41,979 nt of DNA from a virus: positions 1 through 41,979 of IMG/VR virus record IMGVR_UViG_3300032291_001355. One strand, given 5' to 3'. Positions 14,377-37,320 of this stretch are shown here, in pieces. The notes under the pieces are model-generated. The model did not search any database. It saw nothing but the letters and a program-made list of their open reading frames with translations, and was not told where the DNA came from. The number at the start of each line of letters is the position of its first letter. Positions within the stretch are counted from its first letter, which is position 1. The position numbers and the translations under genes are program-made.

Positions 14377-14377
14377 A

Positions 14378-23970: not shown

Positions 23971-24155
23971 ATAAAACATTCTCCTACTAAGTTTAAACAT
24001 TCTTGAAACGGACTAATACTTGATTGCTTCTCTACTTCTAATTTAATTACATTCTTACCTTGTTCTTTATGCCACTTAGCTTCTTTGGCCGACCATCTAT
24101 ACTTACGGACAATCTCACCATCTTCATCTACAACTGCATAACTAAACGGAATCAT
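23967..24155 (-). CDS. Hypothetical small protein
   Basis: 62 residues from MIPFSYAVVDEDGEIVRKY. The start shares ATGA with the upstream stop and has AGGAAG upstream. The YAVVDEDGEIVRKYRW opening resembles a small beta-sheet protein, weakly similar in style to the protein at 24.7-24.9 kb. No family recognised. Confidence 0.65.
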   Translation of the reverse strand: MIPFSYAVVDEDGEIVRKYRWSAKEAKWHKEQGKNVIKLEVEKQSSISPFQECLNLVGECFI

Positions 24156-24301
24156 TTTACTTCCTTCCACCAGTATTTATGCCCTCTAATTTTTTTTAAA
24201 AAAACGTGCCATCTTTTATTTTTATCAGATACTCGCATCTTTATATAGCGTCTAAACCTTTTAGCAATCGGCCATGTAGCGTTGCATTTATAAACAATCA
24301 T
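24152..24301 (-). CDS. Hypothetical basic mini-protein
   Basis: 49 residues from MIVYKCNATW, rich in Lys, Arg and Trp (KRFRRYIKMRV, KKIRGHKYWWKEVK). The start at 24301 shares ATGA with the upstream stop, with TTGGAG upstream. The net charge suggests nucleic acid or membrane contact. No family recognised. Confidence 0.6.
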   Translation of the reverse strand: MIVYKCNATWPIAKRFRRYIKMRVSDKNKRWHVFLKKIRGHKYWWKEVK

Positions 24302-24507
24302 TTTAATATACTCCAACAGATTTGTAGTTTGTTCCAAAAAGATAATTTCTTTGTGTTTGCTACCATGTAATCTGATAATGCTTTTTGTATGCCCGCTTGC
24401 AATATAACTTCTCTACCTGCTTGGTTCATATCTAATGTTAATTTGCAATCACCTTGGTTTGTATCTTTAATACTTACTACTTTGATATATGGTTTTCTAG
24501 TTGCCAT
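24298..24507 (-). CDS. Hypothetical small protein
   Basis: 69 residues. A beta-like start (PYIKVVSIKDTNQGDCKLTLDM) is followed by a helix (AGREVILQAGIQKALSDYMV). AAGGAG lies upstream of the ATG, which overlaps the upstream stop codon (TAATG). No family recognised; part of the coupled small-gene chain. Confidence 0.7.
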   Translation of the reverse strand: MATRKPYIKVVSIKDTNQGDCKLTLDMNQAGREVILQAGIQKALSDYMVANTKKLSFWNKLQICWSILK

Positions 24508-24701
24508 TAAAAACTCCTTTGTTCAAAACATTGTAAGTGTGACTTAACAAACATATTAGTTTTTACTTCTTCATATAGTTCACCTTGTATGCATTTTAAA
24601 TTCACTTTGGATTTCTTTTGCATGTGAGTGTATGAACCTAATCCATATCCTGTAAATATTGCTACAACAATAATTATACCTATAATTAACTTATCCATCA
24701 T
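24507..24701 (-). CDS. Small single-pass membrane protein
   Basis: 64 residues. LIIGIIIVVAIFTGYGLGSY at residues 5-24 is a transmembrane helix, followed by a basic turn (MQKKSKVN) and a soluble tail with two Cys. The ATG shares ATGA with the stop of the upstream gene and has GGAGG just before it. It sits two genes downstream of the cell-wall hydrolase, so a spanin or holin-like lysis role is possible; sequence alone does not prove it. Confidence 0.7.
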   Translation of the reverse strand: MMDKLIIGIIIVVAIFTGYGLGSYTHMQKKSKVNLKCIQGELYEEVKTNMFVKSHLQCFEQRSF

Positions 24702-24952
24702 AACCCTCCATAAGCTTCAGTTAATTTTCTTGTTGACTCTTTATAACTTTTAACACCTGTAATCTTTTCTGTCTGCGACTCATCTTTAAATAAAGGTGTG
24801 ATTGAAATGTAATGTTTTTTAGATGGCAAATCGCGTATCCATGACAATTCGGTTGGTCTAAATTGTGTAATAGATGACCACACTAAATCACCATTGATAT
24901 TGAATTCTTCTATTGCCCATGCGTAGGGTTGTTGTTTAAGGGTTTCTTGCAT
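24698..24952 (-). CDS. Hypothetical small protein
   Basis: 84 residues. YAWAIEEFNINGDLVWSSITQF and a strand-rich middle suggest a small beta-sheet protein, with a basic C-terminal helix. It overlaps the hydrolase gene by 17 bases at its start, with a GAGAGG-type Shine-Dalgarno inside the hydrolase 3' end. No family recognised. Confidence 0.7.
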   Translation of the reverse strand: MQETLKQQPYAWAIEEFNINGDLVWSSITQFRPTELSWIRDLPSKKHYISITPLFKDESQTEKITGVKSYKESTRKLTEAYGGL

Positions 24953-25322
24953 ATTTACCCTCTCCTTGTTTATAAAATATTAGTTTCGACCATTTGACTA
25001 CTGGTTTTAGATTATACCATGATTTTGGTTTCGTGATAGTGGTATCGTGAAAATGTGTTGCACCATATGAATAGTCTACCTCTAGACGATGTAACACTTT
25101 ATAGGCTAGGTCTTTATACTCTTGTCGAATTACCTGTGGGGGTTTGACATAACCATACCAACTAAATTGTGCAGGTCGTTTCATTTCACGGCATACATTT
25201 TTGTAATCAAAGTCTGCTCGTCTAAACAATACATAACCAACGGCAATTTGACCTTGACGTGGTTCGTGTGCAGACTCCATGTAAATCGTTGTGGCTAGGC
25301 ACATCAATGCTTGGTCTAACAT
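24936..25322 (-). CDS. SleB-type cell-wall hydrolase (endolysin candidate)
   Basis: 128 residues, matching the Hydrolase_2 (SleB/CwlJ) fold: CLATTIYMESAHEPRQGQIAVGY with Glu16 as the likely catalytic acid, then FRRA, VCREMKRPAQFSWYG and YGATHFH. Relatives cleave peptidoglycan, probably as lytic transglycosylases or muramidases. No signal peptide is obvious, so release would need a holin or other export. It is the only lysis-type enzyme in the window and is embedded in the early block, not beside virion genes. AGGAGGTAG precedes the ATG. Confidence 0.88.
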   Translation of the reverse strand: MLDQALMCLATTIYMESAHEPRQGQIAVGYVLFRRADFDYKNVCREMKRPAQFSWYGYVKPPQVIRQEYKDLAYKVLHRLEVDYSYGATHFHDTTITKPKSWYNLKPVVKWSKLIFYKQGEGKYARNP

Positions 25323-25351
25323 AGCTACCTCCTTTTTATGGGAACTGGTTT

Positions 25352-25606
25352 CTATTTTTTTAGAAAGTGAGATTTAGTTTCTTCGAGTGTTTCGTGTTCG
25401 ATGAGTTTGTCTAGATACCATCGGGCTTTCTTCAAGTCCTCGGTTCCGTTTTTGAATTTGTATCTCCAAACATATTTAATTACATTTGCGACACATACTG
25501 CGGCGATACCAAACAAGCCTTTGACAGCTTCTTCAATAGCGTTAATGCACTCAATTTTTCCTTGAGTGTAATGCGATGGGTGATTTACATTATCTTTTTT
25601 ATTCAT
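25352..25606 (-). CDS. DUF3310 family protein
   Basis: 84 residues. VNHPSHYTQGKIECINAIEE at the N terminus and VIKYVWRYKFKNGTEDLKKARWYLDKLIE in the second half are the classical DUF3310 signature, common in phages near nucleotide-metabolism genes. The biochemical role is not established. A GAGGTAGT Shine-Dalgarno lies before the ATG. Confidence 0.92.
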   Translation of the reverse strand: MNKKDNVNHPSHYTQGKIECINAIEEAVKGLFGIAAVCVANVIKYVWRYKFKNGTEDLKKARWYLDKLIEHETLEETKSHFLKK

Positions 25607-25607
25607 A

Positions 25608-25889
25608 CTACCTCCTTATCAGAGTTTCTAATTCCTCTATGTTACTCTCATTTATGACTATTGCCAAGCCACCATTAGAATTTATACGGTCGATGTTGTT
25701 TTTTTGCAACGCAGTTAATACACCTTTACCTGCCTTACATTCTATGGCAATAAATTTACCTTGATGACAGATGATGATATCGGGCACTCCACTTCTGCCA
25801 TATCCTCCTGTCTGTGGGAAAAAATAATAACACCCTAACTTATCTAAAAACTTTTTTATTTTGTTTTTAACTTTTGCTTCGGGTGTCAT
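25608..25889 (-). CDS. VRR-NUC nuclease
   Basis: 93 residues, the usual size of a stand-alone VRR-NUC. Motifs: SGVPDIIICHQGKFIAIECKAGKG with Asp37, Glu50 and Lys52, and Gln62 in the following helix. Stand-alone phage enzymes of this family can cut Holliday junctions or branched DNA, which would suit clearing recombination intermediates before packaging. It overlaps the upstream gene by 23 bases, with AAGGACGAG as Shine-Dalgarno. Confidence 0.9.
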   Translation of the reverse strand: MTPEAKVKNKIKKFLDKLGCYYFFPQTGGYGRSGVPDIIICHQGKFIAIECKAGKGVLTALQKNNIDRINSNGGLAIVINESNIEELETLIRR

Positions 25890-26241
25890 CTCGTCCTTCT
25901 AGTTGATTCATTTCATCTTGGAATACTACGATTGCATACAATGACTCTGATGCACGCCAACCAACGTGGTGCATATCATCTACACGACAAGTATATACGT
26001 CAGATGTATAGATTTCGTTGTCGGGAAATATATACGTGGTTGATACTTTAGCTAGTGTCAATTTACTTTTAAGAAAGCTTGGCAAGGTGTCATCATTAAA
26101 CATTCTTACCAAGCCCTTTGATAAAAATACTTCATAGTTATTATCTTTAACTATGATGGGCACTACATAATAGGGCACCATTTTTACTTTTTCAAGTGGT
26201 CCTAAGTCTGTAACATTTTTTAACCCTGTGTGTTCTAACAT
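25867..26241 (-). CDS. Hypothetical protein
   Basis: 124 residues from MLEHTGLKN. The body is beta-rich (YYVVPIIVKDNNYEVFLSKGLVRMF). The start at 26241 has AGGAG four bases upstream and 17 bases above it lies one of the TTCGAC-W4-GTCGAA palindromes; the longer reading from 26265 would run through the palindrome. No family recognised. Confidence 0.72.
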   Translation of the reverse strand: MLEHTGLKNVTDLGPLEKVKMVPYYVVPIIVKDNNYEVFLSKGLVRMFNDDTLPSFLKSKLTLAKVSTTYIFPDNEIYTSDVYTCRVDDMHHVGWRASESLYAIVVFQDEMNQLEGRDDTRSKS

Positions 26242-26257
26242 ACTTCTCCTGTATTGT

Positions 26258-26273
26258 TTCGACAAATGTCGAA
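26258..26273. repeat. Palindrome copy 1 (TTCGACAAATGTCGAA)
   Basis: First copy of the dispersed 16-bp palindrome. It directly follows the stop codon of the 341-residue gene (minus strand) and precedes the AGGAG of the next gene. Confidence 0.9.
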
Positions 26274-27299
26274 TTAGCCTCGTATTTGTTTTATTGGGTT
26301 ACCTTGCATATCAGTAATCTCTAAACCCCACTTAGCTGATGGATAATTATTATCAAAATCCCAATATGTTTGTCTATTAAACACATCAGCATTACCTTTT
26401 AAATCTTTCCTTAGCTTTGGTAATAATTGTTTAAATATTTGCTTGGGTGGATTTATACTTGAATTATATTTTACAGCCCAATATGCATTACCAATATAGT
26501 ATCCTAACACATAAAAGTATGATGACACAACAGGGTCAACATTCCATAGTTGTCTTGCTTTCTCAATGTGATTTAAATTACTATTATTGAAATATTCGGG
26601 GTCATTTTGTTTTATAGCATCAGTCATATCTGCAATTAATGTATTTTCATCGGTTGAGTTATAAAACATTTTAATCATAGATAATTTATCTACATGTTCT
26701 TTCATAAGTTGATTAGATTTTTTCCTATCGACTACCTTTACATCTATCTTATATCTTGATGACTCATGTAATTCTCCAGTATCTATATTAAATCTCATAC
26801 CTTTAAAGGCAGGGCGTTTTAATTTTCTACGATGTTGTGCATACCTATCAGTAAATATAACCCCACCCGATGAAGCCTCTTGCATGAAGTATGCACTTAT
26901 CCCTAGTTGCTCACTAATAATCATGCGGTCACCTTGTCCCATATATTCACATATAATCTCAATAGTATTATCATCTCTTACGATACCGAAGGGAGCATGT
27001 TTAATAAGCCACTTAGACATATATGGTATACCCTCTGGACTTTCATTGTAGAAATACTTATCACGTTGACGTTTATTTAGTGAGTATGCAAATTGTTCAA
27101 ACTCTGCCATACTATACTTTTCCTCTTCACTTCCCCAACCGTAATGCACATTGAATTGAATTTTACCGTTGACTTCGACAGGTATAAAATATTTATGTCT
27201 ATGATTTCTGTATGCGTAGGGATATTCGTTTGTATTTCTATATGGTGGTGCATTTTGATACAACCAAGTTAATTGCTGATAGTTAATACTTCCTGCCAT
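26274..27299 (-). CDS. Hypothetical 341-residue protein
   Basis: 341 residues with many aromatic residues: ANxYPYAYRNHRHKYF-like start, FNVHYGWGSEEEKYSMAEF, a mixed middle, a basic helical part (KVVDRKKSNQLMKEHVDKL) and YFYVLGYYIGNAYWAVKY. No catalytic motif recognised. GAGGAG lies before the ATG. Its stop codon is fused to palindrome copy 1, and copy 2 lies just upstream of its start, so the gene is bracketed by the element. Confidence 0.78.
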   Translation of the reverse strand: MAGSINYQQLTWLYQNAPPYRNTNEYPYAYRNHRHKYFIPVEVNGKIQFNVHYGWGSEEEKYSMAEFEQFAYSLNKRQRDKYFYNESPEGIPYMSKWLIKHAPFGIVRDDNTIEIICEYMGQGDRMIISEQLGISAYFMQEASSGGVIFTDRYAQHRRKLKRPAFKGMRFNIDTGELHESSRYKIDVKVVDRKKSNQLMKEHVDKLSMIKMFYNSTDENTLIADMTDAIKQNDPEYFNNSNLNHIEKARQLWNVDPVVSSYFYVLGYYIGNAYWAVKYNSSINPPKQIFKQLLPKLRKDLKGNADVFNRQTYWDFDNNYPSAKWGLEITDMQGNPIKQIRG

Positions 27300-27318
27300 G
27301 ATACTCTCCTCTAGTTAT

Positions 27319-27334
27319 TTCGACATATGTCGAA
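27319..27334. repeat. Palindrome copy 2 (TTCGACATATGTCGAA)
   Basis: Exact 16-bp palindrome in the gap between two minus-strand genes, about 20 bases above the ATG at 27299. Confidence 0.92.
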
Positions 27335-27354
27335 TTGTTAATTATATTTATTTC

Positions 27355-27645
27355 TTACCTCTCTGCTTGTTGATATGCATACTCTATTTTTATATCAGTT
27401 AATAGTTTCTCTAGCTGTTCCTTTGATTTTTTAAATCGTCTAGCATAGTGCCAATTAATACGATGTGACTCCTTACTTTTAATATCTAATTGCCATGCTA
27501 GTTTATTTAATTGTTCCAAAATTGCACCTCGTTCCCTTGCTTCATTTAGTGTTGTTCCCACTTTAACCACCTCTCTAATATGATTATTCACCGTTCCCAT
27601 TTTGTAACCAAAGAATATCTTATCCTTAACTCTCATCTTAGGCAT
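27355..27645 (-). CDS. Hypothetical basic helical protein
   Basis: 96 residues, mostly helical and basic (HYARRFKKSKEQLEKLLTDIK). No known family. GGAG lies seven bases before the ATG; the start overlaps the end of the acidic protein upstream by eight bases. Given its charge and that of its acidic neighbour, the two could form a complex (inference). Confidence 0.7.
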   Translation of the reverse strand: MPKMRVKDKIFFGYKMGTVNNHIREVVKVGTTLNEARERGAILEQLNKLAWQLDIKSKESHRINWHYARRFKKSKEQLEKLLTDIKIEYAYQQAER

Positions 27646-27946
27646 CTGCTAACTCCATAGTAAGTTCTACTACTCTTGCATTGACTTCATCAGACGTAGC
27701 CTTATTCATATAGAAGTCTATATCCTCATGAGTTACGGTTGATTTTTGTTTTCTTAAACACCATATTCTCTTTTTCATTAACTCATCATCTATGAATTCC
27801 TCTATCATAGCCATCTCCATAAGTTGTTTAAACATAGCACTACTCGCTTGCCTAATCTTTTCTTCAATGTGTTCATGGTTGATATCATCAATATCAAAAT
27901 CTATATCTATATCTATATCATCGTCTTCATTATAAATCGTTGACAT
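27638..27946 (-). CDS. Hypothetical acidic protein
   Basis: 102 residues. An extreme acidic, alternating stretch near the N terminus (DDDIDIDIDFDIDD, residues 8-21) is coded by a GATATA hexamer repeat; a helical remainder follows. GGAG precedes the ATG. The alternating Asp/Ile pattern would make a beta strand with one acidic face, or a DNA-mimic patch. No family recognised. Confidence 0.7.
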   Translation of the reverse strand: MSTIYNEDDDIDIDIDFDIDDINHEHIEEKIRQASSAMFKQLMEMAMIEEFIDDELMKKRIWCLRKQKSTVTHEDIDFYMNKATSDEVNARVVELTMELADA

Positions 27947-28145
27947 CTAGTTCTCCTTAATTGGTGGGGTGTAGCTTAGGTTTCGATATTCAAGCTACTT
28001 TAAACTTTTACGAGTCTTTCTATTCCACTACCTTAAGTTTCCTCAAGGCTATATGTTTAGAGGCTGTTATTTAACATATCATTTAAAGCTAATTATGCAC
28101 TCACCTCAAAGGTGGCCATTAGCCGACACACAGTTCCCCATTGAC
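27947..28145 (-). other. 199-bp leader/intergenic region with possible structured RNA
   Basis: No convincing gene. On the minus strand it contains GTAGCTT-N14-AAGCTAC (27971-27998) and a small CACCT-TTG-AGGTG hairpin near 28105. An 18-codon frame (28093-28149) opens with an ATGA overlap to the previous stop but has no Shine-Dalgarno. Could be an untranslated leader of the acidic-protein gene. Confidence 0.4.
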
Positions 28146-28346
28146 TCATTTTACTGTTTTAAATACTTTTATTAATCTAAATCTTTTCAGTAAATTATTT
28201 AATTTTCTATCACTAAGTAGTTCTCTTTTTGCATAGAGTCTTGCTAACCTAGTATTTTCATAATTATTATAGTTTTCATAATCATCATAAGGTCTATACT
28301 TGTATTTAATTTCATCTATTTCTTTTAACTTTTCTTCCCTAGTCAT
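28146..28346 (-). CDS. Hypothetical small charged protein
   Basis: 66 residues, Tyr/Asn-rich in the middle (YRPYDDYENYNNYENTRLAR) and basic at the end (NNLLKRFRLIKVFKTVK). The ATG overlaps the end of the VWA gene by eight bases, with a weak AAGG Shine-Dalgarno. No family recognised; probably produced with the MoxR-VWA module. Confidence 0.68.
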   Translation of the reverse strand: MTREEKLKEIDEIKYKYRPYDDYENYNNYENTRLARLYAKRELLSDRKLNNLLKRFRLIKVFKTVK

Positions 28347-29505
28347 CTTTCTTAACTACCTTGCCACTTGGTGGTTCAAAACTTCTGTTCTGCGTGACTA
28401 ACCACAATGTTGGCGTGGTGATGTCCCACTTGATATCTGACTCGACATAGCCATCTGTAAAGACTAATACACCCTCTGCGTTAAGTTTATGTTGATTAAT
28501 ATATTCAGCGACACAGGATACATGAGTGCCACCCCCACCCTCGGGTTTAAGTAGCGATGCGATGTTAGTATAATTATCATCAAACGTTTGCATAGCATGG
28601 ACTTCGGTATCCCACCACAAAACACGCACACGTGCAGGGTTAACTGATTCACAAATCGAAGCCAGTTCTGATGCAAACTCTGTAAGTTCTGCACCACCGA
28701 TTGAACCCGATGTATCGATTGCTACTATGAGTTCGCCGACCGTTTCGTTTTCAAGGCTTGGCATGTAGATATCATTAGCCATAAGTCGTTTGTTAAACCT
28801 ACGCCATGTATATTCCTCTGAACCTCTCGATGCCGATGTTACGAAATCACGTAAGACCTCTCGCCAATTAACCTTAGGCTCAAGTAAGTCCGATATCTGA
28901 CGTGGTATCTTAGCACCCATACGACCTGCGAGTATGCCACCTTCTCGTAACGCCCTATCAATCTTGCCTGCTTGTTCAGCGACTTGTTCTGTTGTCATCT
29001 GTTTAGCATTACCAAAGTCATGTTCATCTAAAGGCTTCATAGATTCGACATTTGTCGAACTGTCCTTGTTGTTTTGTTCTTTCTTTAAATATTCATACAC
29101 CTCACGCACAGACCAATTATGAAATTGTTTATCATACAATGCACCTGTCGGTAGCTTACAAATATTTTTATCTGTAAAGTTCATAATAATATCATTCACA
29201 ACATAATCTGCTGACACGTTGGTTAGATGTGGATTATCTTTAAACTCTCTAATAAAGCGTTGCATATGTTTCAATGCTACATGTAAGTTCTCATGCATTA
29301 CAATGCCTCTGAGTTCCTCATCACTTAACTTGGATATAAACTCTCTACTATATCGTTTGTTAAAGCCATCGGTGTATGCCGTAAAGTTCTCATCATCAAC
29401 ACTACTTTTACCCATGAGTATAACCCCCGAATACAACGCAGTTTCGGGGTGTTTAAGTAGTGCGACATGAGCCTTCTTGAGTCTTGTTTCTTGACTTGTC
29501 GCCAT
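28339..29505 (-). CDS. DUF2201-like metallopeptidase + VWA protein
   Basis: 388 residues. The N-terminal domain has a zincin-like MHENLHVALKH (His71, Glu72, His75). The C-terminal domain has VGELIVAIDTSGSIGG, a complete MIDAS DxSxS (264-268), and VLWWDTEVHAM plus VLVFTDGYVES. This is the DUF2201 arrangement. VWA proteins paired with MoxR ATPases act as chaperone-like partners in metal insertion or complex remodelling. The ATPase lies directly upstream (12-base gap). Palindrome copy 3 lies within it and codes for Ser-Thr-Asn-Val-Glu at 150-154. Confidence 0.88.
   Translation of the reverse strand: MATSQETRLKKAHVALLKHPETALYSGVILMGKSSVDDENFTAYTDGFNKRYSREFISKLSDEELRGIVMHENLHVALKHMQRFIREFKDNPHLTNVSADYVVNDIIMNFTDKNICKLPTGALYDKQFHNWSVREVYEYLKKEQNNKDSSTNVESMKPLDEHDFGNAKQMTTEQVAEQAGKIDRALREGGILAGRMGAKIPRQISDLLEPKVNWREVLRDFVTSASRGSEEYTWRRFNKRLMANDIYMPSLENETVGELIVAIDTSGSIGGAELTEFASELASICESVNPARVRVLWWDTEVHAMQTFDDNYTNIASLLKPEGGGGTHVSCVAEYINQHKLNAEGVLVFTDGYVESDIKWDITTPTLWLVTQNRSFEPPSGKVVKKDD
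29044..29059. repeat. Palindrome copy 3 (TTCGACATTTGTCGAA), inside a gene
   Basis: Lies within the VWA gene and reads in frame as Ser-Thr-Asn-Val-Glu, in a charged linker between its two domains. Confidence 0.9.
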
Positions 29506-29517
29506 GTCTATCTCCTA

Positions 29518-30591
29518 TTAAAATAATTCGTGATTCTCTGTAGCCCACTTAGCAATCTCAGCGTTACTTCTTGCTAGCTTCACACCATTCTTACTACGCA
29601 CCATCATGGTAAAGAATACTGCTTGAAGTTCGCTACTCTCAATACGTTTTACAAACTGCATAAACTTACTGAGTTCGTCTTGTGTCGATAGACTATCCAC
29701 TGCTTGGAACATAAGCATGAGTTTCGCTGCCGTATCTTCGGGCATTGTTATCGTGGTTGGTTTATCTAATATCTCAATAAACTTAGGTAATGTTTTCTCT
29801 AGCCTTAGGAACGCTGACATATCAGCACTAGCACTTGCACCGATAGTCCCTGCTAATGCACACATGGTTGCATTGTCACCTAGTCTGCTTTGCATATCGA
29901 CAATGATAGATGACTTAGCAAGTGAACGTGGTGAACAGAACGATAGATTAGTTTTACTTGGTTGAAAGATATATGGGTTATCCTCTTGACCACCATCGGT
30001 ATAACTATTCAAACATCGTGGGAACATATACACCCATGCTCTGATTAAAGGATTGATTGAATTATCAGTCGCCCACTTGAGCCATGTATCGACATCGGGC
30101 TTTTGCATCTTCAATAGACATACACGATTACCTGCATGGGCTAACATACTATCACCCACACCATCGCTTGCATTGTTTGACGTTGCAAACACAATACTAC
30201 CTTTAGGCAACTCGGTATCGCCTACACTTCTCTCTAGCATGAGCCTTGTGAATATCACTTGTAATAACTTAGGCGACTTCATAAACTCATCAAGTAAGAT
30301 AACCTTAGGCTTAGGGCTATCTAGTTTAAACAAACTACCGACATATGTTTCTAACGATTTACTAGCGTGGTTAGGAATAGTCATCGCTATGTCTGACATA
30401 TCTTTGACAGGGCAATCGACATATATGTAATCATATGTATCACCTAAATCTTCCTTAATCATTTTGAGTAATGATGTCTTACCACAACCTGGTTCTGATT
30501 GAATGACAGGCGTTATTGATTGACCTATCGCAGGAATTAACTTTCTTAGTTCATCGATTGTTACACTTGCTATGTTATTAATTGTTGCCAT
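29518..30591 (-). CDS. MoxR-type AAA+ ATPase
   Basis: 357 residues. Walker A EPGCGKTS (33-40), Walker B VILLDEFMKSP (about 97-107), sensor 1 IVFATSNNASDG (about 133-144) and an arginine-finger region near RVCLLKM. It lacks a helicase C-terminal domain, which fits MoxR/RavA/CbbQ-like remodellers. With the VWA protein downstream and the 304-residue gene upstream it forms a three-gene module. The target in phage infection is unknown. GAGAGGATAG precedes the ATG, which overlaps the previous gene by 14 bases. Confidence 0.9.
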   Translation of the reverse strand: MATINNIASVTIDELRKLIPAIGQSITPVIQSEPGCGKTSLLKMIKEDLGDTYDYIYVDCPVKDMSDIAMTIPNHASKSLETYVGSLFKLDSPKPKVILLDEFMKSPKLLQVIFTRLMLERSVGDTELPKGSIVFATSNNASDGVGDSMLAHAGNRVCLLKMQKPDVDTWLKWATDNSINPLIRAWVYMFPRCLNSYTDGGQEDNPYIFQPSKTNLSFCSPRSLAKSSIIVDMQSRLGDNATMCALAGTIGASASADMSAFLRLEKTLPKFIEILDKPTTITMPEDTAAKLMLMFQAVDSLSTQDELSKFMQFVKRIESSELQAVFFTMMVRSKNGVKLARSNAEIAKWATENHELF

Positions 30592-30766
30592 GATTACTAT
30601 CCTCTCTGTTTAGTTTGTCATTAATAAATTTTGTTGCTATTGCTCTTTTTTCTGTATCTGACATTCTCTCAAATATCTTTTTCATACGTTGTTCCCACAT
30701 AAAATCTTTAGTTATCTTACATAGGTATCCACAACCAAACCATATTGCAAAAGTAATCCACTCCAT
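30578..30766 (-). CDS. Small membrane protein in the MoxR operon
   Basis: 62 residues. WITFAIWFGCGYLCKITK (about 3-20) is a short hydrophobic N-terminal segment, followed by a charged helix (MWEQRMKKIFERMSDTEKRAIATKF). AAGGAGAG lies before the ATG, and palindrome copy 4 overlaps the first part of that site. It overlaps the MoxR gene start by 14 bases, suggesting translational coupling. Could tether the module to the membrane; no family recognised. Confidence 0.72.
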   Translation of the reverse strand: MEWITFAIWFGCGYLCKITKDFMWEQRMKKIFERMSDTEKRAIATKFINDKLNREDSNHGNN

Positions 30767-30777
30767 ACTGCTCTCCT

Positions 30778-30793
30778 TTCGACATATGTCGAA
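30778..30793. repeat. Palindrome copy 4 (TTCGACATATGTCGAA)
   Basis: Follows directly on the TAA of the 304-residue gene (minus strand) and runs straight into AAGGAGAG, the next Shine-Dalgarno. Confidence 0.92.
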
Positions 30794-31708
30794 TTAAAGT
30801 TTAAATTTAGATAAGATGTCATCAACGTTGTTCTTAACCTTTTCTCTGACAGCATCACTCTCTCTGATTGTATCTATATCTACACCATTCAAGGCATACT
30901 CTAACTTGGTTACTGCGTCAGTCAAGCGATTGGTTATCTCATTGTTTACTGGTTTAAATGCTTTAAATGTTGCACATAACTCTTTAGCTTTTTCGATTGT
31001 GGTATCATATATTTTGCGTTTCTTCGTCTTAACTTCGCCTGTGTTTGCATCGGTAGTTTCCGACACTCCACAACAATGGCTGATACTTTCCATGACATCA
31101 GTAAGCCTGTCCACTTGTTCCGATACGACATGATTGATAATCTCCTCTGCTTGTTTGGTGTATTGGTCTTTTAAATCATTAGCGATGTCATTAGATATAT
31201 TACATCGCCAGTCATGACTCGGCACTTCTGCGACATACAACTTGATACCAAATTTATTTCTAACTTCCATAGCATCGGGGTAATCATCTTTGTTAAACAT
31301 ATCACCTGCTTTGAAAGCCATGTTACTTACGATAGATTGGTAATTGTTTATGAAGTCATCTAGATATTTATTAAACGTTAGTTCGTGGTCATTAAACTCA
31401 TTCTTAAACTTTTCTAGATTGATAACAGGAAGTAAGTCTTGGCTATTGTTCCAACGATACGTGGAACGTTTTAACCAGTTATATATAGTCTGTCTATAAT
31501 TACTTACACGTTTGTGAAATAAGTCATCTGCTAAAAGGTTCTTCACAAATCTGCCTGCACTTGAGTCTGCTTTTTTAGCATGAGTAACTTCGTCTGATAT
31601 AGTTCTGTCTTGCTTTGTTGCTGACCATACATTGACATCAACTGATACTAATACTGCTGACGTTGCCAATGATATGATATGGTTCGGTTGTTGCATTTGA
31701 TACTCCAT
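30794..31708 (-). CDS. DUF3150-like helical protein of the MoxR module (tentative)
   Basis: 304 residues, mostly helical. SAVLVSVDVNVWSATKQDRTISDEV near the N terminus and the long charged helices resemble DUF3150-type proteins that I recall beside phage MoxR/VWA genes; the family name is tentative. CCG at about 215 and TKKRKIYDTTIEK follow. GAGGAG precedes the ATG. It is the first gene after the promoter at 31792-31820 and its leader contains palindrome copy 5. Confidence 0.7.
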   Translation of the reverse strand: MEYQMQQPNHIISLATSAVLVSVDVNVWSATKQDRTISDEVTHAKKADSSAGRFVKNLLADDLFHKRVSNYRQTIYNWLKRSTYRWNNSQDLLPVINLEKFKNEFNDHELTFNKYLDDFINNYQSIVSNMAFKAGDMFNKDDYPDAMEVRNKFGIKLYVAEVPSHDWRCNISNDIANDLKDQYTKQAEEIINHVVSEQVDRLTDVMESISHCCGVSETTDANTGEVKTKKRKIYDTTIEKAKELCATFKAFKPVNNEITNRLTDAVTKLEYALNGVDIDTIRESDAVREKVKNNVDDILSKFKL

Positions 31709-31729
31709 GTTGCTCTCCTCTTTATTGAG

Positions 31730-31745
31730 TTCGACATATGTCGAA
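31730..31745. repeat. Palindrome copy 5 (TTCGACATATGTCGAA)
   Basis: In the leader between the promoter at 31792-31820 and the start of the 304-residue gene, about 40 bases below the predicted transcript start. ACGTGG follows immediately (31746-31751). Confidence 0.92.
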
Positions 31746-31791
31746 ACGTGGTTTTACTACTGAATAGCCCTTTCCCATTGTCTAATATACT

Positions 31792-31820
31792 ATTATACCA
31801 TACATTATAACAAAAGTCAA
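31792..31820 (-). promoter_or_regulatory. Strong sigma70 promoter, leftward
   Basis: On the minus strand TTGACT (31820-31815), a 17-base spacer and TATAAT (31797-31792) preceded by TGG, an extended -10. Fourteen bases around the -10 (TGGTATAATAGTAT) are identical to those of the promoter at 34334-34362. It would drive the MoxR module. Transcription from further upstream genes could also read through. Confidence 0.78.
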
Positions 31821-31861
31821 GCCTCGCCTATGAGTATCTTAACTGATACACCATATAAAAA

Positions 31862-32308
31862 TTAAACTTCAAACTCAATACCTCTTGCGGGATATAGCAA
31901 ACTATAGCCATCATCGCCACCATACTTTGTATCTATATCTTCTGTTTCTTCTCCGATACGCACAAAACCATAGCTTATGGATAGACCTTCTAGCTTATCA
32001 TCTTCCTGTTGAGCCGTGATATATTCCTCTGCTAGTTCTAATAACTTTTCGTGGCATTGAACGTCATCATAATCGTCATACCATTTCCAATCACTCGCAT
32101 AGAATTTTAACAGCATAGATGTTTCTTGCACTTCTAACTCATCATGTTCAAAACAAAGTTTAGTGTCCTCTCTAGACTTGGCTTCAGCTAAGAATGTATT
32201 AAACATATCCCGACCTGTGAGTAGCCTTTGGTTATCGGGAACTTCATTTCTGTATCTTAAATCTTCATTGAAGGCTATGGCATAGCCTACTTCACTTCGA
32301 TAGCCCAT
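31862..32308 (-). CDS. Conserved phage hypothetical (MGYRSEV type)
   Basis: 148 residues. MGYRSEVGYAIAFNED is an opening common to a family of phage proteins of unknown function; the rest is acidic with WKWYDDYDDVQCHEKLLEL and a beta-like C terminus. AAGGTAGG precedes the ATG. It ends at the edge of the promoter-containing gap at 31709-31861, so it closes the operon that starts at 34232. Confidence 0.8.
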   Translation of the reverse strand: MGYRSEVGYAIAFNEDLRYRNEVPDNQRLLTGRDMFNTFLAEAKSREDTKLCFEHDELEVQETSMLLKFYASDWKWYDDYDDVQCHEKLLELAEEYITAQQEDDKLEGLSISYGFVRIGEETEDIDTKYGGDDGYSLLYPARGIEFEV

Positions 32309-32620
32309 TTATAACCTACCTTTCGTGGTGAGTTTCTCGACATACGCTTGTGCATCGAGCATCGCTTGTTCTTCAAAGTATAGCTTTGGTTCGACTTTTG
32401 TCGAAACGGGATTGACGTGGTTAGATTGTGTATCACCCGTCAGACTGCGGATAAGTCTTAACGTGTCACGTGCCAATTCATAACGACCTAAAGTTATGCC
32501 ATCAATGTCGTCATGCGAGATACCAGTCACCGAGTTTACTTCTTCGGCATCATGCTTTAATTCCTTTTGTAAGAAACGCACAATGTTTTCTACGACTTCT
32601 TTATGTTTATTGGATTTCAT
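32309..32620 (-). CDS. Hypothetical helical protein containing a palindrome copy
   Basis: 103 residues, mostly helical. Palindrome copy 6 lies inside and reads as Ser-Thr-Lys-Val-Glu in the exposed linker NHVNPVSTKVEPKLYF. AAGGAAG lies before the ATG, and the start overlaps the upstream gene by 14 bases. No family recognised. Confidence 0.72.
   Translation of the reverse strand: MKSNKHKEVVENIVRFLQKELKHDAEEVNSVTGISHDDIDGITLGRYELARDTLRLIRSLTGDTQSNHVNPVSTKVEPKLYFEEQAMLDAQAYVEKLTTKGRL
32390..32405. repeat. Palindrome copy 6 (TTCGACTTTTGTCGAA), inside a gene
   Basis: Inside the 103-residue gene, in frame as Ser-Thr-Lys-Val-Glu. ACGTGG occurs ten bases away (32415-32420). Confidence 0.9.
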
Positions 32621-32816
32621 TATTTTCTTCCTTTTTTAAATAACTTTTAGCTTTGTTAATAGCGTCTATCGGGTCGGTTGCATACATGGTATGGGTTCTG
32701 TTTAACCATACATTATCTCTTAACGGACTTTCTACTTGATACCCCACTTCATGCAATACATATGGGCTATCGTTACAAGGTTCTAAACACCTTGCTGTCA
32801 AGTTCCTAGTCTTCAC
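32607..32816 (-). CDS. Hypothetical small protein with GTG start
   Basis: 69 residues. Begins VKTRNLTARCLEPCND (GTG read as Met) with two Cys in the N-terminal part, then YATDPIDAINKAKSYLKKEE. The GTG at 32816 is preceded by AGGGGG, part of a 22-base segment that is copied 197 bases upstream at the start of the next gene. No family recognised. Confidence 0.68.
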   Translation of the reverse strand: MKTRNLTARCLEPCNDSPYVLHEVGYQVESPLRDNVWLNRTHTMYATDPIDAINKAKSYLKKEENNEIQ

Positions 32817-33023
32817 AATTACCCCCTAACCTTCCATATAGTTTCAGATGTTATTCTTTCTTTAAGTGTGTGTGTAGTTTCTTTGCAATTATCGTCATGA
32901 TAGACCCAATACTTTTTCTTTAAATACTCATCACCTAATGGATAATCCTCACCCCATATTCTTTTTACTTGTAGTTCACTTAACGCTACTATCAACTCTG
33001 CCCTAGTCTTCACAATTACCCCC
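32805..33023 (-). repeat. 22-bp duplicated translation-start module
   Basis: An identical 22-base segment at 32805-32826 and 33002-33023. Each copy contains the GGGGG Shine-Dalgarno, the GTG start and the first codons (V-K-T-R) of a small gene. The spacing is 197 bp, close to one small gene's length. Confidence 0.88.
32819..33013 (-). CDS. Hypothetical small protein with GTG start
   Basis: 64 residues, VKTRAELIVALSELQVKRIWG onward, then a Lys/Tyr-rich part (DEYLKKKYWVYHDD). The GTG at 33013 is preceded by GGGGG at five bases. A TTG four codons earlier gives a longer reading but lies within the Shine-Dalgarno. Beyond the first four codons it does not resemble the next gene, so the duplicated part is only the start region. 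Confidence 0.66.
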   Translation of the reverse strand: MKTRAELIVALSELQVKRIWGEDYPLGDEYLKKKYWVYHDDNCKETTHTLKERITSETIWKVRG

Positions 33024-33290
33024 AATACAAGACTTATTTAAGATTTCGTCCTCGATGTCGGCGAGTGCATTGTTTTCCATGAAACGCAAAGATGTTTGAC
33101 ATAACTCATCAAATGCTTGGATAGGGAATACTTCTGCTTTTAACATAAGACCTTTGTCTTTTAGATTTTCTGTGAGAAGGGTAGCAAGATGTCCTTCAAC
33201 GCTAACCCAGTCGTCCCAGTTTTTAATTTCTCTTATCATGCTTTCATCAACTTTAATCTTGACTACTGCCGTATATTCTCTTGTTTGCAT
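33003..33290 (-). CDS. Hypothetical small protein
   Basis: 95 residues: a beta-like start (REYTAVVKIKVDESMIREI) followed by helices, ending NKSCIGGNCED with two Cys. AAAGGAGAAA precedes the ATG, and palindrome copy 7 lies 24 bases above it. The stop overlaps the next start module by 11 bases. No family recognised. Confidence 0.72.
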   Translation of the reverse strand: MQTREYTAVVKIKVDESMIREIKNWDDWVSVEGHLATLLTENLKDKGLMLKAEVFPIQAFDELCQTSLRFMENNALADIEDEILNKSCIGGNCED

Positions 33291-33313
33291 TTTGTTTCTC
33301 CTTTAAGTTTAAG

Positions 33314-33329
33314 TTCGACATATGTCGAA
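33314..33329. repeat. Palindrome copy 7 (TTCGACATATGTCGAA)
   Basis: Directly follows the TAA stop of the 103-residue gene at 33330-33641 on the minus strand. Confidence 0.92.
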
Positions 33330-33641
33330 TTAGGTTTGTGCTTGGTTAATACAATATCCAACGATACCATCTCTTATCATAGACTTCAACCCTTCCGTAT
33401 CCACCCATCTATGAACGTAGTGTGGTTTAGATAAAGATTGATGACGCGTGGTTGAACGTGAATACTTATCCATGTTACCTATCCATTTACATACAATATC
33501 GTCCCACAGGTAGATAGGAAAGTGTTCACCATAACTAAAAACTACATAGGTATTTCCTCGCCATTCACCATACAGATTACTCGCATGAAAAGCTTCTAGG
33601 TTACCTATATATTGTTTTGCGTTTTTGTTACTTACTTTCAT
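33330..33641 (-). CDS. Conserved phage hypothetical
   Basis: 103 residues. NTYVVFSYGEHFPIYLWDD and KYSRSTTRHQSLSKPHY recall a small phage family of unknown function. The ATG lies one base after the upstream TGA, with AGAGGACG as Shine-Dalgarno. Its stop is fused to palindrome copy 7. Confidence 0.75.
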   Translation of the reverse strand: MKVSNKNAKQYIGNLEAFHASNLYGEWRGNTYVVFSYGEHFPIYLWDDIVCKWIGNMDKYSRSTTRHQSLSKPHYVHRWVDTEGLKSMIRDGIVGYCINQAQT

Positions 33642-33642
33642 T

Positions 33643-33816
33643 TCACACGTCCTCTTCCGTTACACTAACAACTTCATAATTCTTTGTATCGTCATAAGAC
33701 AAATCTTCAAATGCTTTATCAATAGCTTCATCTTCTGTTTGTGCGACATCTTTGCTTACTTTTACATTGATATACACATTTTTTTCTAGCGTTACTACCC
33801 ATACTTTTTTACTCAT
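33643..33816 (-). CDS. 57-residue hypothetical protein
   Basis: 57 residues beginning MSKKVWVVTLEKNVYINVKV and ending YEVVSVTEEDV. It looks like a small beta-alpha-beta protein with DEAIDKAFEDL as the helix. The ATG shares ATGA with the upstream stop and has AAGGGGG nine bases before it; its TGA is one base before the next ATG. Coupling on both sides strongly supports it despite its size. Confidence 0.8.
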   Translation of the reverse strand: MSKKVWVVTLEKNVYINVKVSKDVAQTEDEAIDKAFEDLSYDDTKNYEVVSVTEEDV

Positions 33817-34022
33817 TTCACAATACCCCCTTTGTTGTTGAGTCCTTTTAAGTCATCGTGGTTAGTGATGACCATGTAATTACTCTTGTGCATGGGTGCG
33901 ATTGTATGCTTTTTACTACGTGCATCTTGTTCACCACATTTTAAACAGGTTGTGTAGCCTAAACGCCATCGACCATGTAATACGTGGTCACCACATTTAA
34001 CACATAAGTTCTTATACTCCAT
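33813..34022 (-). CDS. Zinc-ribbon-like small protein
   Basis: 69 residues. NLCVKCGDHVLHGRWRLGYTTCLKCGEQ contains two CxxC(G) pairs 19 residues apart, a classical zinc ribbon. The remainder is basic. AAGGAG lies before the ATG and palindrome copy 8 ends directly on that Shine-Dalgarno. Probably nucleic acid or protein binding. Confidence 0.78.
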   Translation of the reverse strand: MEYKNLCVKCGDHVLHGRWRLGYTTCLKCGEQDARSKKHTIAPMHKSNYMVITNHDDLKGLNNKGGIVK

Positions 34023-34033
34023 GTTTGACTCCT

Positions 34034-34049
34034 TTCGACATATGTCGAA
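34034..34049. repeat. Palindrome copy 8 (TTCGACATATGTCGAA)
   Basis: On the minus strand it is fused to the TAA of the upstream membrane-protein gene and runs into AAGGAGTC, the Shine-Dalgarno of the zinc-ribbon gene. Confidence 0.92.
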
Positions 34050-34232
34050 TTAACGAAGAACTGAAACGATTAAGATAAACGCCGCAATACCCCACGCTAT
34101 AACTTCGGTGATGATTAGACGTCTGAGTCGGGACTTGTGAATTGTTACGTGCTGACTTAACATGACTTCTCTGTTGTAATTAAAGATATAGTCTTTAAGC
34201 TTTTTATCATTACTATGATTTTGAAGTGCCAT
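34050..34232 (-). CDS. Small membrane protein
   Basis: 60 residues. A charged N-terminal half (HSNDKKLKDYIFNYNREVM) and a C-terminal hydrophobic helix, LIITEVIAWGIAAFILIVSVL, form a tail-anchored protein. AAAGGAGAAA precedes the ATG. First gene below the promoter at 34334-34362. No family recognised. Confidence 0.75.
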   Translation of the reverse strand: MALQNHSNDKKLKDYIFNYNREVMLSQHVTIHKSRLRRLIITEVIAWGIAAFILIVSVLR

Positions 34233-34267
34233 TTCTTTTCTCCTTTGTATGCCTGCTATTAGTTAAA

Positions 34268-34283
34268 TTCGACAAATGTCGAA
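34268..34283. repeat. Palindrome copy 9 (TTCGACAAATGTCGAA)
   Basis: In the leader of the promoter at 34334-34362, about 45-60 bases below the predicted transcript start, the same relative position as copy 5. Confidence 0.9.
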
Positions 34284-34333
34284 CCGAACAGGGTAATACA
34301 TAACATATAGCTAGACTGCCCCATTCAAATACT

Positions 34334-34362
34334 ATTATACCACTACTTTACAATAAAGTCAA
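34334..34362 (-). promoter_or_regulatory. Strong sigma70 promoter, leftward
   Basis: Minus-strand TTGACT (34362-34357), 17-base spacer, TATAAT (34339-34334) with TGG before it. It shares TGGTATAATAGTAT with the promoter at 31792-31820. Likely drives the small-gene operon from 34232 leftward. Confidence 0.8.
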
Positions 34363-34435
34363 TAGCCTCGTATAAAATAGTCTTACGTGATAGTCCTTGG
34401 TTCACGAAATTAGAACGTGGTTTTGGGTGACGTAA

Positions 34436-34451
34436 TTCGACTTTTGTCGAA
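34436..34451. repeat. Palindrome copy 10 (TTCGACTTTTGTCGAA)
   Basis: In the candidate origin, about 75 bases upstream of the -35 box at 34357-34362 and between ACGTGG motifs at 34415 and 34458. Confidence 0.9.
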
Positions 34452-34482
34452 GTGATAACGTGGTAAAAATGGAGTGGAACGT

Positions 34483-34529
34483 GGTTCATGGTTCAAAAAC
34501 CCTCTACTTTACATATTGAACCATGAACC
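34483..34529. repeat. Perfect 14-bp inverted repeat
   Basis: GGTTCATGGTTCAA (34483-34496) and TTGAACCATGAACC (34516-34529) with a 19-base spacer. Each arm itself carries a tandem of the GGTTCA unit. No T-run follows on the plus strand; on the minus strand AAAC follows, so a terminator is unlikely. Confidence 0.9.
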
Positions 34530-34929
34530 GAGCTTTTTGAAAAAATTAGAAAGTGCGTAAGTTATTGTATTTATTATATATTATATATTATATTATATTA
34601 TTATTATTGATTAAAAAATAGGCAAGTTCATGGTTCATGCCATTTTCGAATAGTGAGGGGGGTTTTGACTTTTGGATATTGCATAGCATGTTCTCAGTCA
34701 AACGACGTCTAAAACTTCCACCTTCGCCCCCTATGCTACGAAAGCATGAACTTATGAACCTTCCTTAATAATCAAAGACTTAGACTTTTAAAACATGAAC
34801 CGATTTATGAACCACGCAATACAAAACATGAACCTAGGCTTACGCTTAGGCTTATGAGAACTGGTATCTATAAGGAACTGGTTTCTATAACTGGTTTCAA
34901 AAAAAGTTGAAACCACGTGATGACCAGAC

Positions 34930-34962
34930 AAAAAAAAGCCACGCTAGGTTATAACGTGGCTT
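34930..34962 (-). terminator. Rho-independent terminator, leftward
   Basis: Read on the minus strand: AAGCCACG, an 11-base loop, CGTGGCTT and a run of eight or so T. It lies 22 bases below the stop of the 222-residue gene and ends its transcript before the candidate origin. Confidence 0.88.
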
Positions 34963-34984
34963 ATGAGATTAATACGTGGTGGCT

Positions 34985-35653
34985 TTATTCGGTAGCCATC
35001 TTACCATTATCACGTCTTAGGTTATACTCGGCTATTAATTTTTCAAATAGCTTAGTAAGTAAGACTGGATTTTCATTATCGATAAGTTCGGCTTTATCGA
35101 TTGCGTTTTTAGCTACTTTCGCCAAATCCAAAGTAGGTGCTTTCGGTTCGGTTTCGGGCTTAAATACAGCTAACATTCTTGAAATAGTTTTATTCACACT
35201 ATTCTTAATTAAAGCCGTTTTTACAGGTTTCATTATCGCCGTAATTTGAGCTTTTACAGGGTTCGCCTTTTCATACTTACCCAAATCATTAGCCATAAGC
35301 CAACCGATTGAAGCGTGATGCCTTTCACTCTCTTTAGCCTTTTCGAATTCGACTTTTGTCGAAATGAGCCAATTTTCGCCTTGCTTAACAAAATACTTTT
35401 CAACGTCACCTTTTTTAGCCGAATACTGAGTGACAATGCCTTCTGCTAGGGGTTGATACATAACAACTGGAAGGCTCTTAGGTGTTTTGTATTGGCTAGG
35501 CTCTACTAACATTTCACCTAGCTTTAATGCTAAACCCTTAATGGTATCAATACCTAGTATTGCATCACTAGCTTGAGTGCCTAATTGGCGAACCACGTTA
35601 GCGTCAAACTTACTTGTTAAAACATTCACTACTGATTTATGTAATGTAGTCAT
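34985..35653 (-). CDS. Hypothetical 222-residue protein beside the origin region
   Basis: 222 residues, largely helical. Opening MTTLHKSVVNVLTSKFDANVV; central YFVKQGENWLISTKVEFEKAKESERHHASIGWLM; Lys/Ala-rich C-terminal half. Palindrome copy 11 lies within it, read as Ser-Thr-Lys-Val-Glu. GGAG precedes the ATG, and a clear terminator follows. No family recognised. Position between the candidate origin and its own terminator makes it a candidate origin or palindrome-binding factor, but no DNA-binding motif is visible. Confidence 0.75.
   Translation of the reverse strand: MTTLHKSVVNVLTSKFDANVVRQLGTQASDAILGIDTIKGLALKLGEMLVEPSQYKTPKSLPVVMYQPLAEGIVTQYSAKKGDVEKYFVKQGENWLISTKVEFEKAKESERHHASIGWLMANDLGKYEKANPVKAQITAIMKPVKTALIKNSVNKTISRMLAVFKPETEPKAPTLDLAKVAKNAIDKAELIDNENPVLLTKLFEKLIAEYNLRRDNGKMATE
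35348..35363. repeat. Palindrome copy 11 (TTCGACTTTTGTCGAA), inside a gene
   Basis: Inside the 222-residue gene and read as Ser-Thr-Lys-Val-Glu, the same frame as copies 3 and 6. Confidence 0.9.
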
Positions 35654-35727
35654 TTTTAATACTCCTATAAAATACGTGGCTTAATTGCCCCGTAACCAAA
35701 TAATGACACATGGCTAGAATTTGTCAA

Positions 35728-35743
35728 TTCGGCAAATGTCGAA
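35728..35743. repeat. Palindrome copy 12 (TTCGGCAAATGTCGAA, one mismatch)
   Basis: The most diverged copy, with G in place of A at position 5. Lies in the leader region of the 222-residue gene. Confidence 0.75.
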
Positions 35744-36076
35744 CCCACCCCATAGGGCATAGCCCAACGTGGTTTTGGAGTCCCAAAAAACAAACCTACA
35801 CTAAGACCTGCACAAATAGCTGGCAAAAATTCAAAACTTTTGTATATAATAAGAGCTAACAAGGGCTTATTGGGTCTCTCCTCTCAGTAATACTTCTCTC
35901 TCGCCTGGTAAGTCCTTGTTTTCTATATAGAAACCCCCCCCCTATCAAAAATAAAAGGCTTTGCAAAAAAATTTTTATAAAAAATTCTGAAATATCAAGG
36001 AGTTAAATACAAAAAGTGCATGAAACTTTAATAAGTAAACACAAAAAAAAGACTTATTTGCACAGTTAAGTGCTTG

Positions 36077-36128
36077 ATTATAAAAAGATTTGCCTGTTTT
36101 TTACAAGATAGTAGATTTGGCAGGCAAA
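36077..36128 (-). promoter_or_regulatory. Possible leftward promoter with flanking inverted repeat
   Basis: Minus strand TTGTAA (36106-36101), 18-base spacer, TATAAT (36082-36077). The arms TTTGCCTG (36089-36096) and CAGGCAAA (36121-36128) surround the -35 box with centres 32 bases apart, about three helical turns. The -35 is only a partial match. The same arms followed by TCTTTTT could instead form a weak terminator of the SprT-like gene. Confidence 0.35.
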
Positions 36129-36172
36129 AACGTTTTCACTCAAAACCATAAAAATGCAATAATGAATGAAAA

Positions 36173-36520
36173 CTAGATTGCTTTGGGATCGAAGTTGTAT
36201 AACTCGGAGTAGACGTTTTTAATACGAAGGAATTTAGGACCGTGCTCATGGAAGTCTTCATCGCCACGAACATAGAGAGCTAAGTGTACCATTTCATGAA
36301 GAAGAGTTTGGAATATAGTAGTGAAGTGCCCACAAGCGTTAGAGCTTATTTGAATTTCCATCTCATGCTCATCAAAGCAACCATATATATTAGGGTTTTT
36401 AATTACTTTAAATCTAACTTTAGAAGACTTAGGCATGGGAAGCTTATTAAAAGGCGCCATTTGACATGCCATGTTATATAGAATCTCTAGGTTCTTCTTA
36501 GTTAGCGTCGTGTGAGTCAT
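36173..36520 (-). CDS. SprT-like zinc metalloprotein
   Basis: 115 residues. LLHEMVHLALY gives the HExxH (His75, Glu76, His79), followed by HEHGPKF whose His is the usual third ligand in SprT/Spartan-like proteins. A beta strand (MEIQISSNAC) precedes it. Relatives such as Spartan degrade DNA-protein crosslinks, and bacterial SprT is less well known; a role in clearing protein from phage DNA is an inference. It lacks a zinc-ribbon C terminus. The ATG directly follows the stop of a 20-residue gene. Confidence 0.82.
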   Translation of the reverse strand: MTHTTLTKKNLEILYNMACQMAPFNKLPMPKSSKVRFKVIKNPNIYGCFDEHEMEIQISSNACGHFTTIFQTLLHEMVHLALYVRGDEDFHEHGPKFLRIKNVYSELYNFDPKAI

Positions 36521-36583
36521 CTAAATAAATATTGCTAATAAAAAATAGATCACACCGGGGTCAGTAAAGCCAATTAATTCCAT
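36521..36583 (-). CDS. 20-residue hydrophobic mini-protein
   Basis: Frame MELIGFTDPGVIYFLLAIFI then TAG, with AAAGGAG eight bases before the ATG, one of the best Shine-Dalgarno sites in the window. The TAG is immediately followed by the ATG of the SprT-like gene. The peptide would be a short membrane-inserted helix. It may be a real mini-protein or a leader that sets SprT-like translation by coupling. Confidence 0.6.
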   Translation of the reverse strand: MELIGFTDPGVIYFLLAIFI

Positions 36584-36622
36584 ATTCTTATCTCCTTTTA
36601 TATAATTCTAACAAAATTAGTA

Positions 36623-36651
36623 TTGTCTGACCTATTAATAACGTATATATT
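36623..36651 (+). promoter_or_regulatory. Possible rightward promoter for packaging genes
   Basis: TTGTCT (36623-36628), 17-base spacer and TATATT (36646-36651), with a predicted start near 36658, about 40 bases before the ATG at 36697. The boxes are partial matches; a late promoter recognised by a modified polymerase would look different. Confidence 0.4.
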
Positions 36652-36696
36652 ACAAGAATTGCTGCAAATTTAATCAAAAGGTGTAATCAGCGACAC

Positions 36697-37320
36697 ATGA
36701 CCGTACAAAATACCCAACAAAATCAATCTGATAGTGGTTCCAACCACGTTATCATTGTTCCTCACATCGAAGAGGACATCATTTTACCTAGTTCAGCTTC
36801 AGAAGCTATGCCAAGTTTAAGTGTAGCCGAAGAAATCAACATGAGAGCCAAGACAATTAAGTTAGTATCAGACTTAAAAGGTGAGAACATAGAACCCACC
36901 GAGAAAAACGTGGCGGAAGCTAGGAAGCTAGCAAGTGAAATGATGACTAACCCTGATTTACGACCTGAGTTTGGTAACTATCCTAATGAGACCTTAGCTT
37001 TTCTTGCCGGACTCGTTGCACAGAGCAACCATATGATCGTGAAAGACCTAGCTGATTTTAAGTTATACGTGGTGAATAGCTTAGTTAAGATGGCGGAAAC
37101 TGCAAAGTCAGACAAAGATAAGATCGCAGCTTTAAAAAGTATAGGCGACATTGACGGGGTTGATGCATTTAAGAAGAAGACAGAAGTTACGCACAAATTG
37201 GAGACGATGGAGGAAGTTGAGAAAGAGCTTCTATCAATGCTTAATGAATTTAAATCTAAAGGGTTAATTAAAGAACCTCCTCAGACTATAGATGCAGAAG
37301 TGATAGATGACAATGAGTGA
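36697..37320 (+). CDS. Small terminase subunit candidate
   Basis: 207 residues directly before the large terminase and overlapping it by 14 bases. The body is helical: AEEINMRAKTIKLVSDLKGENIEPTEKN, a helical centre (FKLYVVNSLVKMAETAKSDKDKIAALKSIG) and VTHKLETMEEVEKELLSMLNEF, with an acidic C terminus. A clear helix-turn-helix is not visible; the call rests mainly on position and size. AAAGGTG precedes the ATG. Two ACGTGG motifs lie within the gene (36908, 37067) and one reversed (36744). Confidence 0.65.
   Translation: MTVQNTQQNQSDSGSNHVIIVPHIEEDIILPSSASEAMPSLSVAEEINMRAKTIKLVSDLKGENIEPTEKNVAEARKLASEMMTNPDLRPEFGNYPNETLAFLAGLVAQSNHMIVKDLADFKLYVVNSLVKMAETAKSDKDKIAALKSIGDIDGVDAFKKKTEVTHKLETMEEVEKELLSMLNEFKSKGLIKEPPQTIDAEVIDDNE

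Follow-up and report, generated by a model that had tools for sequence, protein, structure and literature searches.

The presence of a short palindrome, TTCGAC-N4-GTCGAA, at several gene junctions of a 41,979-base virus record (IMG/VR record IMGVR_UViG_3300032291_001355, called the window here in its full length) raises the question as to whether such elements act in the transcript, next to stop codons and ribosome sites, or in the DNA. On balance our analysis points to a stoperator-like array of DNA operators that is probably read by a new and rapidly diversifying family of phage DNA-binding proteins, the reader in this genome most likely being the product of the operon-head gene, which heads the early region (the head protein). 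The 16-nucleotide (nt) element occurs in 11 exact copies and one copy with a single mismatch, all of them within 26.2-35.8 kb of the window, and if up to two mismatches are allowed there are 15 matches in comparison with 0.71 expected and a maximum of four in 100 shuffles. Eight of 11 palindromes are intergenic where the intergenic share of the sequence is 16% (P = 5e-5), and with the control region set aside the figure is six of nine in comparison with 4.8% of the sequence (P = 9e-7). Outside the palindrome itself the copies share little conserved sequence, and sites along the early genes are spaced by roughly 0.2-1.7 kb. The record is probably incomplete; relatives extend to about 60-66 kb and a capsid gene was not recognised among the translated open reading frames (ORFs) of the window.

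Scanning viral contigs with the MoxR ATPase of the window (29518-30591) gave 80 related loci, among which only the closest relatives carry TTCGAC whereas many others carry another repeated palindrome of similar build. Next to the TTCGAC-N4 of the window, the words of individual lineages include GTCTAC-N5, AATCGGG-N4, AAGCGT-N8, GTGGGA-N2, TGTAGTGA-N2, CGTCGTGA-N2, GTATCG-N4, GTCGTA-N4, CGTGTC-N4, TTCACG-N4 and TTCCACG-N4, and the site is symmetric in every lineage in which one was found. Copies of any such word number at most 2-3 in shuffled genomes and up to 11 in the real relatives. Pag-Yong1, an isolated Planktothrix phage (loci L154 and L163), has GGTTCA-N3-TGAACC 18 times in its first 50 kb and three times in the remainder, 21 copies in total, and the sites of the AT-rich relatives are largely restricted to some 10 kb surrounding the early genes. 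Several addresses are kept under several spellings, namely after the stop and before the start of the 304-amino-acid gene and, within coding sequence, at codons 144-150 of the VWA gene (three spellings) and codons 25-28 of the 132-amino-acid gene; the junction after the 304-amino-acid gene, where the copy at 30778 stands in the window, holds a palindrome in many lineages. The combination of a spelling that is uniform within a genome, differs between genomes and recurs at fixed positions indicates a factor that reads the word. Repetition, conserved addresses and uniform lineage-specific spelling are established features of these loci. Such repeats were absent from the stretches of HTVC027P, 023Pt_psg01, DSL-LC04, CRP-7 and N4 that were examined, and an earlier description of them was not found in a literature search limited to open-licence papers. 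A terminase search for a host or prophage gave only three contigs, two of which are distant relatives in metagenome-derived genomes.

The spelling is linked to the head protein. A syntenic basic protein of 190-235 amino acids is encoded in nearly all relatives examined, with an isoelectric point (pI) above 8 in 33 of 34 head proteins; direct searches with it fail past the closest relatives, and iterative profiles unite most of the groups as one family. Head-protein groups and words match consistently among the loci that have both, and two scans that were run independently, one with the word and one with the protein, agree. The head-protein scan gave three contigs, all with the TTCGAC word, and those word-bearing contigs that cover the head region all have the head protein (88-100%), the remaining ones stopping short of the region. 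The cleanest test of the linkage is the comparison of one relative (G020) with two others (G021 and G022), in which MoxR (94-96%), DNA polymerase (88-91%), terminase (94-97%) and a small helix-turn-helix (HTH)-like protein (99-100%) are nearly identical, the head proteins show 19-25% identity with no significant match, and the word also differs. Separately, four loci from lineages with the TTCCAC word (L062, L067, L076 and L084) contain two adjoining copies of the head gene that are about 32-36% identical.

Between the window and a near relative (G001) none of the 11 sites has been lost. The arms have changed at 0 of 132 positions in comparison with a flank identity of 90% (P about 1e-6), a conservation slightly overstated by the fact that sites were located by their arms, and the centre shows 7 changes in 44 positions, none of which introduces a G or C. 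Selection thus acts on the arms and not on the exact centre. In most lineages the half-sites are 10 bp, one helical turn, apart.

Whether the element works as RNA was raised by a preliminary description of the window, which had seen a compact module of stop codon, palindrome, ribosome site and ATG and had argued from a fixed phase to the stop codon for an action at the RNA or translation level. The sequence observation is right: the copies at 26258, 30778, 33314 and 34034 start directly after a TAA on the minus strand, those at 30778 and 34034 run into the ribosome site, with the last base of the arm forming the first A of AAGGAG (GTCGAA followed by AGGAG), and the module is also present in other lineages including Pag-Yong1. 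The stop-codon inference is not, as three further copies lie in genes, two in leaders, one in the control region and one 3 nt past a TAA, and in relatives 0 to 11 nt or more separate the stop from the palindrome, depending on the lineage; phasing to stop codons as a general rule was accordingly rejected. At 30778 and 34034 the spacer measures only 27 nt, and the room required ahead of the start codon accounts for the abutment. The broader result is an array of operator-like sites, specific to each lineage, that tracks a fast-evolving head protein.

The palindromes could instead be hairpins in the transcript that are bound by a phage protein, either as a nut/put-like antitermination signal or as a translational operator; we regard this as unlikely, yet several observations speak for it. 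Most copies are in transcribed leaders or at junctions of stop codon and ribosome site, and the leader position of about +50 recalls nut/put sites. The lambdoid N/nut system uses short inverted repeats (boxB) in early leaders with lineage-specific recognition and few copies per genome, N/boxB pairs likewise change specificity together, and RNA pairing is essential there. A hairpin can form here as well, although the stability put forward in the preliminary description is modest (the element alone folds at -5.8 kcal/mol, and the junctions have z-scores of -0.3 to -2.3), and no Rfam family scored above its gathering threshold in 24000-36700. In Pag-Yong1 a stop codon lies 3 nt ahead of several palindromes, and an ATG follows many of them at a distance of 21-22 nt; the latter distance is near-constant there and in G027, which weighs against a DNA operator; it may only reflect the room taken by a ribosome site, and it keeps an RNA or translational role alive.

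Pairing, however, does not appear to be what is conserved. Were it important, G.U pairs on the sense strand would be expected to be preferred among single changes, whereas the 46 mispairs in single-mismatch copies comprise 19 A.C, 4 G.U and 23 others, so that 42 of 46 are not wobble pairs, and compensation is seen in just 5 of 59 two-mismatch copies. As the copies are related these counts are not independent and the test is a moderate one, but base pairing is kept neither by wobble nor by compensatory change, in contrast to the N/nut system. Copies within genes sit at kept positions away from start sites, the A/T-only centre suits DNA shape better than an RNA loop, and one copy sits directly upstream of the -35 box predicted for the head gene. 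Taken together, the non-wobble mispairs, the A/T centre, the 10-bp half-sites, the in-gene copies and the copy at the head promoter favour DNA binding, and the palindromes are likely to act as DNA rather than RNA elements.

The earlier suggestion that the element is bound by a protein is compatible with these data, such binding being what we infer from sequence, and the most likely binder is the 222-amino-acid head protein. A different factor, such as the product of a small phage ORF, might instead occupy the same DNA operators with the head protein merely travelling along. We consider this improbable: of the variable genes that we saw, the head gene alone keeps a constant place across lineages and is altered whenever the word changes, and most lineages have a site upstream of it. 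As a binder the small HTH-like protein (14056-14412) was rejected because it is 99-100% identical where words differ, and so were MoxR and the VWA protein (about 90-96% identical). Several findings nevertheless count against the head protein and towards another binder. It has no convincing match in Pfam, PHROG or NCBIfam and no recognised DNA-binding domain, and a Foldseek search of the PDB with models of the head protein from the window (predicted local distance difference test, pLDDT, 71, moderate confidence) and from L067 (pLDDT 86, better) gave nothing below E = 1. No homology to the window family could be detected for the head proteins of G020 and of G021 and G022, or between those of G020 and G021, and so the link among these three genomes is one of position only; a few small ORFs also differ between them. 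Two loci (L034 and L041) have a head protein and no clear palindrome. Weak matches of two head proteins to IscR (E 1e-3) did not recur in nine members checked singly and were not used.

Two further explanations fare worse. That a phage RNA polymerase (T7-like, or one using N4-like hairpin promoters) recognises the palindromes as parts of its promoters is suggested by their position at gene junctions and by the MoxR/VWA gene pair, which is common to N4-like phages, but is very unlikely given the sigma-70-like early promoters beside the palindromes, the lack of such repeats in the N4, CRP-7 and DSL-LC04 stretches and the little that is conserved beyond the palindrome among window copies; a search for the single-subunit RNA polymerase PF00940 found none, a weak result since it was also missing from the control set. 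That the palindromes are mobile or selfish repeats which multiplied by copying and have no regulatory role, as flanks common to copies in G027 and G009 might suggest through cassette copying, is likewise very unlikely since unrelated words occupy identical addresses in different lineages and the arms are conserved, unlike the drifting centre and flanks.

Table 1 Palindromes, predicted transcription signals and the operon-head gene in the window
Feature	Position	Strand	Context or basis
Palindrome	26258..26273	-	Abuts TAA of gene 26274-27299; ATG at 26241 follows after 16 nt
Palindrome	27319..27334	-	Intergenic; 3 nt past TAA (TAACAA)
Palindrome	29044..29059	-	Within VWA gene near codon 149; other lineages have another spelling at the same address
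Palindrome	30778..30793	-	Between TAA of 304-amino-acid gene and AGGAG of next gene
Palindrome	31730..31745	-	Leader downstream of P2, centred at about +48; ATG of 304-amino-acid gene follows after 21 nt
Palindrome	32390..32405	-	Within gene 32309-32620
Palindrome	33314..33329	-	Directly after TAA of gene 33330-33641
Palindrome	34034..34049	-	Flanked by TAA of gene 34050-34232 and by AGGAG of next gene
Palindrome	34268..34283	-	Leader downstream of P1; centre about +52
Palindrome	34436..34451	-	Non-coding control region, upstream of P1
Palindrome	35348..35363	-	Within operon-head gene
Palindrome, one mismatch	35728..35743	-	Immediately upstream of predicted -35 of operon-head gene
Promoter-like site P1 (TTGACT-17-TATAAT, TG before -10)	34334..34362	-	Predicted from sequence
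Promoter-like site P2 (TTGACT-17-TATAAT, TG before -10)	31792..31820	-	Predicted from sequence
Promoter-like site of operon-head gene (TTGACA-16-CATTAT)	35700..35727	-	Predicted from sequence
Intrinsic-terminator-like hairpin just past operon-head gene (11-pair stem, T tail)	34936..34962	-	Predicted from sequence
Operon-head gene (222 amino acids, pI 9.3)	34985..35653	-	Without recognised family or fold; putative palindrome binder

The three palindromes within genes are read in one common frame that gives the peptide S-T-x-V-E, perhaps the least disruptive one. P1 and P2, both strong and sigma-70-like, are the two best promoter-like sites of the window (Table 1) and have palindrome centres at about +48 to +52, and in four differently spelled lineages the distance from promoter to palindrome falls mostly within +42 to +56, apart from a single copy at +74. 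A palindrome upstream of the head gene is found in most lineages, and the mismatch copy in the window is a possible autoregulatory site. Under the operator reading the palindromes would be DNA sites spread over the early transcription region and bound by a fast-evolving, basic, phage-encoded protein, presumably as a dimer. Sites about 50 bp downstream of P1 and P2 and along the early genes could stop or slow RNA polymerase, a roadblock that would shut the early genes off, and the site upstream of the promoter of the head gene could provide autoregulation. Together with these leader sites, the promoter-like site, upstream palindrome and terminator-like hairpin of the head gene form the layout expected of an autoregulator with downstream roadblocks. 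Protein and sites would change specificity together, giving different words at the same addresses in related phages.

The nearest precedent, by analogy, is found in the Cluster A mycobacteriophages (L5, Bxb1, TipsytheTRex), in which one repressor binds many intergenic stoperators and halts elongation, each phage group has its own consensus and stoperator-site distances correlate with repressor distances (PMC6550527, PMC9283540). The array in the window would work like these, with numerous short sites that for the most part fall in small gaps between genes, one candidate regulator gene with an adjoining site and, provided that the head protein is the repressor, a lineage-specific site that changes with it. 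In contrast, the sites here are symmetric, whereas those of Cluster A are 13-bp asymmetric elements in one orientation to transcription, some are inside genes, and the head protein has no match to the L5-family repressor with its HTH and stoperator domain. The two may also differ in integration, as no integrase (PF00589) was found in 17 records, several of them incomplete, a search that did not cover serine integrases or parABS.

In the Bacillus prophage SPbeta the master regulator MrpR binds a 15-bp element (SPBRE) at many intergenic places (PMC10516654), which resembles the present system in having one site type at many intergenic positions. MrpR is however tyrosine-recombinase-like and its sites are in promoter regions, whereas the head protein has no structural match and a tyrosine-recombinase fold was not found in the above Foldseek search. 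The start-associated sequences (SAS) of Cluster K mycobacteriophages are 13-bp asymmetric elements typically 3-7 bp from the start codon, and the extended element (ESAS) contains inverted repeats (PMC3203893). These are likewise repeated elements just upstream of the start codons of a subset of genes, but the window palindromes are 11-35 nt from start codons or inside genes.

Tentatively, we may be looking at an immunity-like self/non-self system of repressor and operators in a sizeable group of aquatic phages that apparently do not integrate, with an undescribed DNA-binding family of new fold and a word that is rewritten at all sites in the course of lineage divergence; we infer any role in immunity, like roadblock repression and binding by a dimer of the head protein, from the arrangement of the loci. 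If the protein is confirmed it would constitute a new DNA-binding family and would suggest immunity-like repression in phages without a detected integrase. These genomes offer many natural pairs of candidate regulator and DNA word in close relatives, some nearly identical elsewhere, in which the joint shift in specificity of a DNA-binding protein and its full set of sites can be studied, and the isolate Pag-Yong1 with its own word is a directly testable system.

Some other features of the window were also noted. The stretch 34233-34984 contains repeated GGTTCATG / TGAACC iterons and an AT-rich block near 34560-34610, which possibly represent a replication origin, and AACTGGTTTCTAT occurs in three near-tandem copies at 34859-34901. 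The MoxR ATPase and VWA gene pair occupies 28339-30591. Two early genes at 25867-27299, encoding 132 and 341 amino acids, diverge much faster than their neighbours among the relatives.

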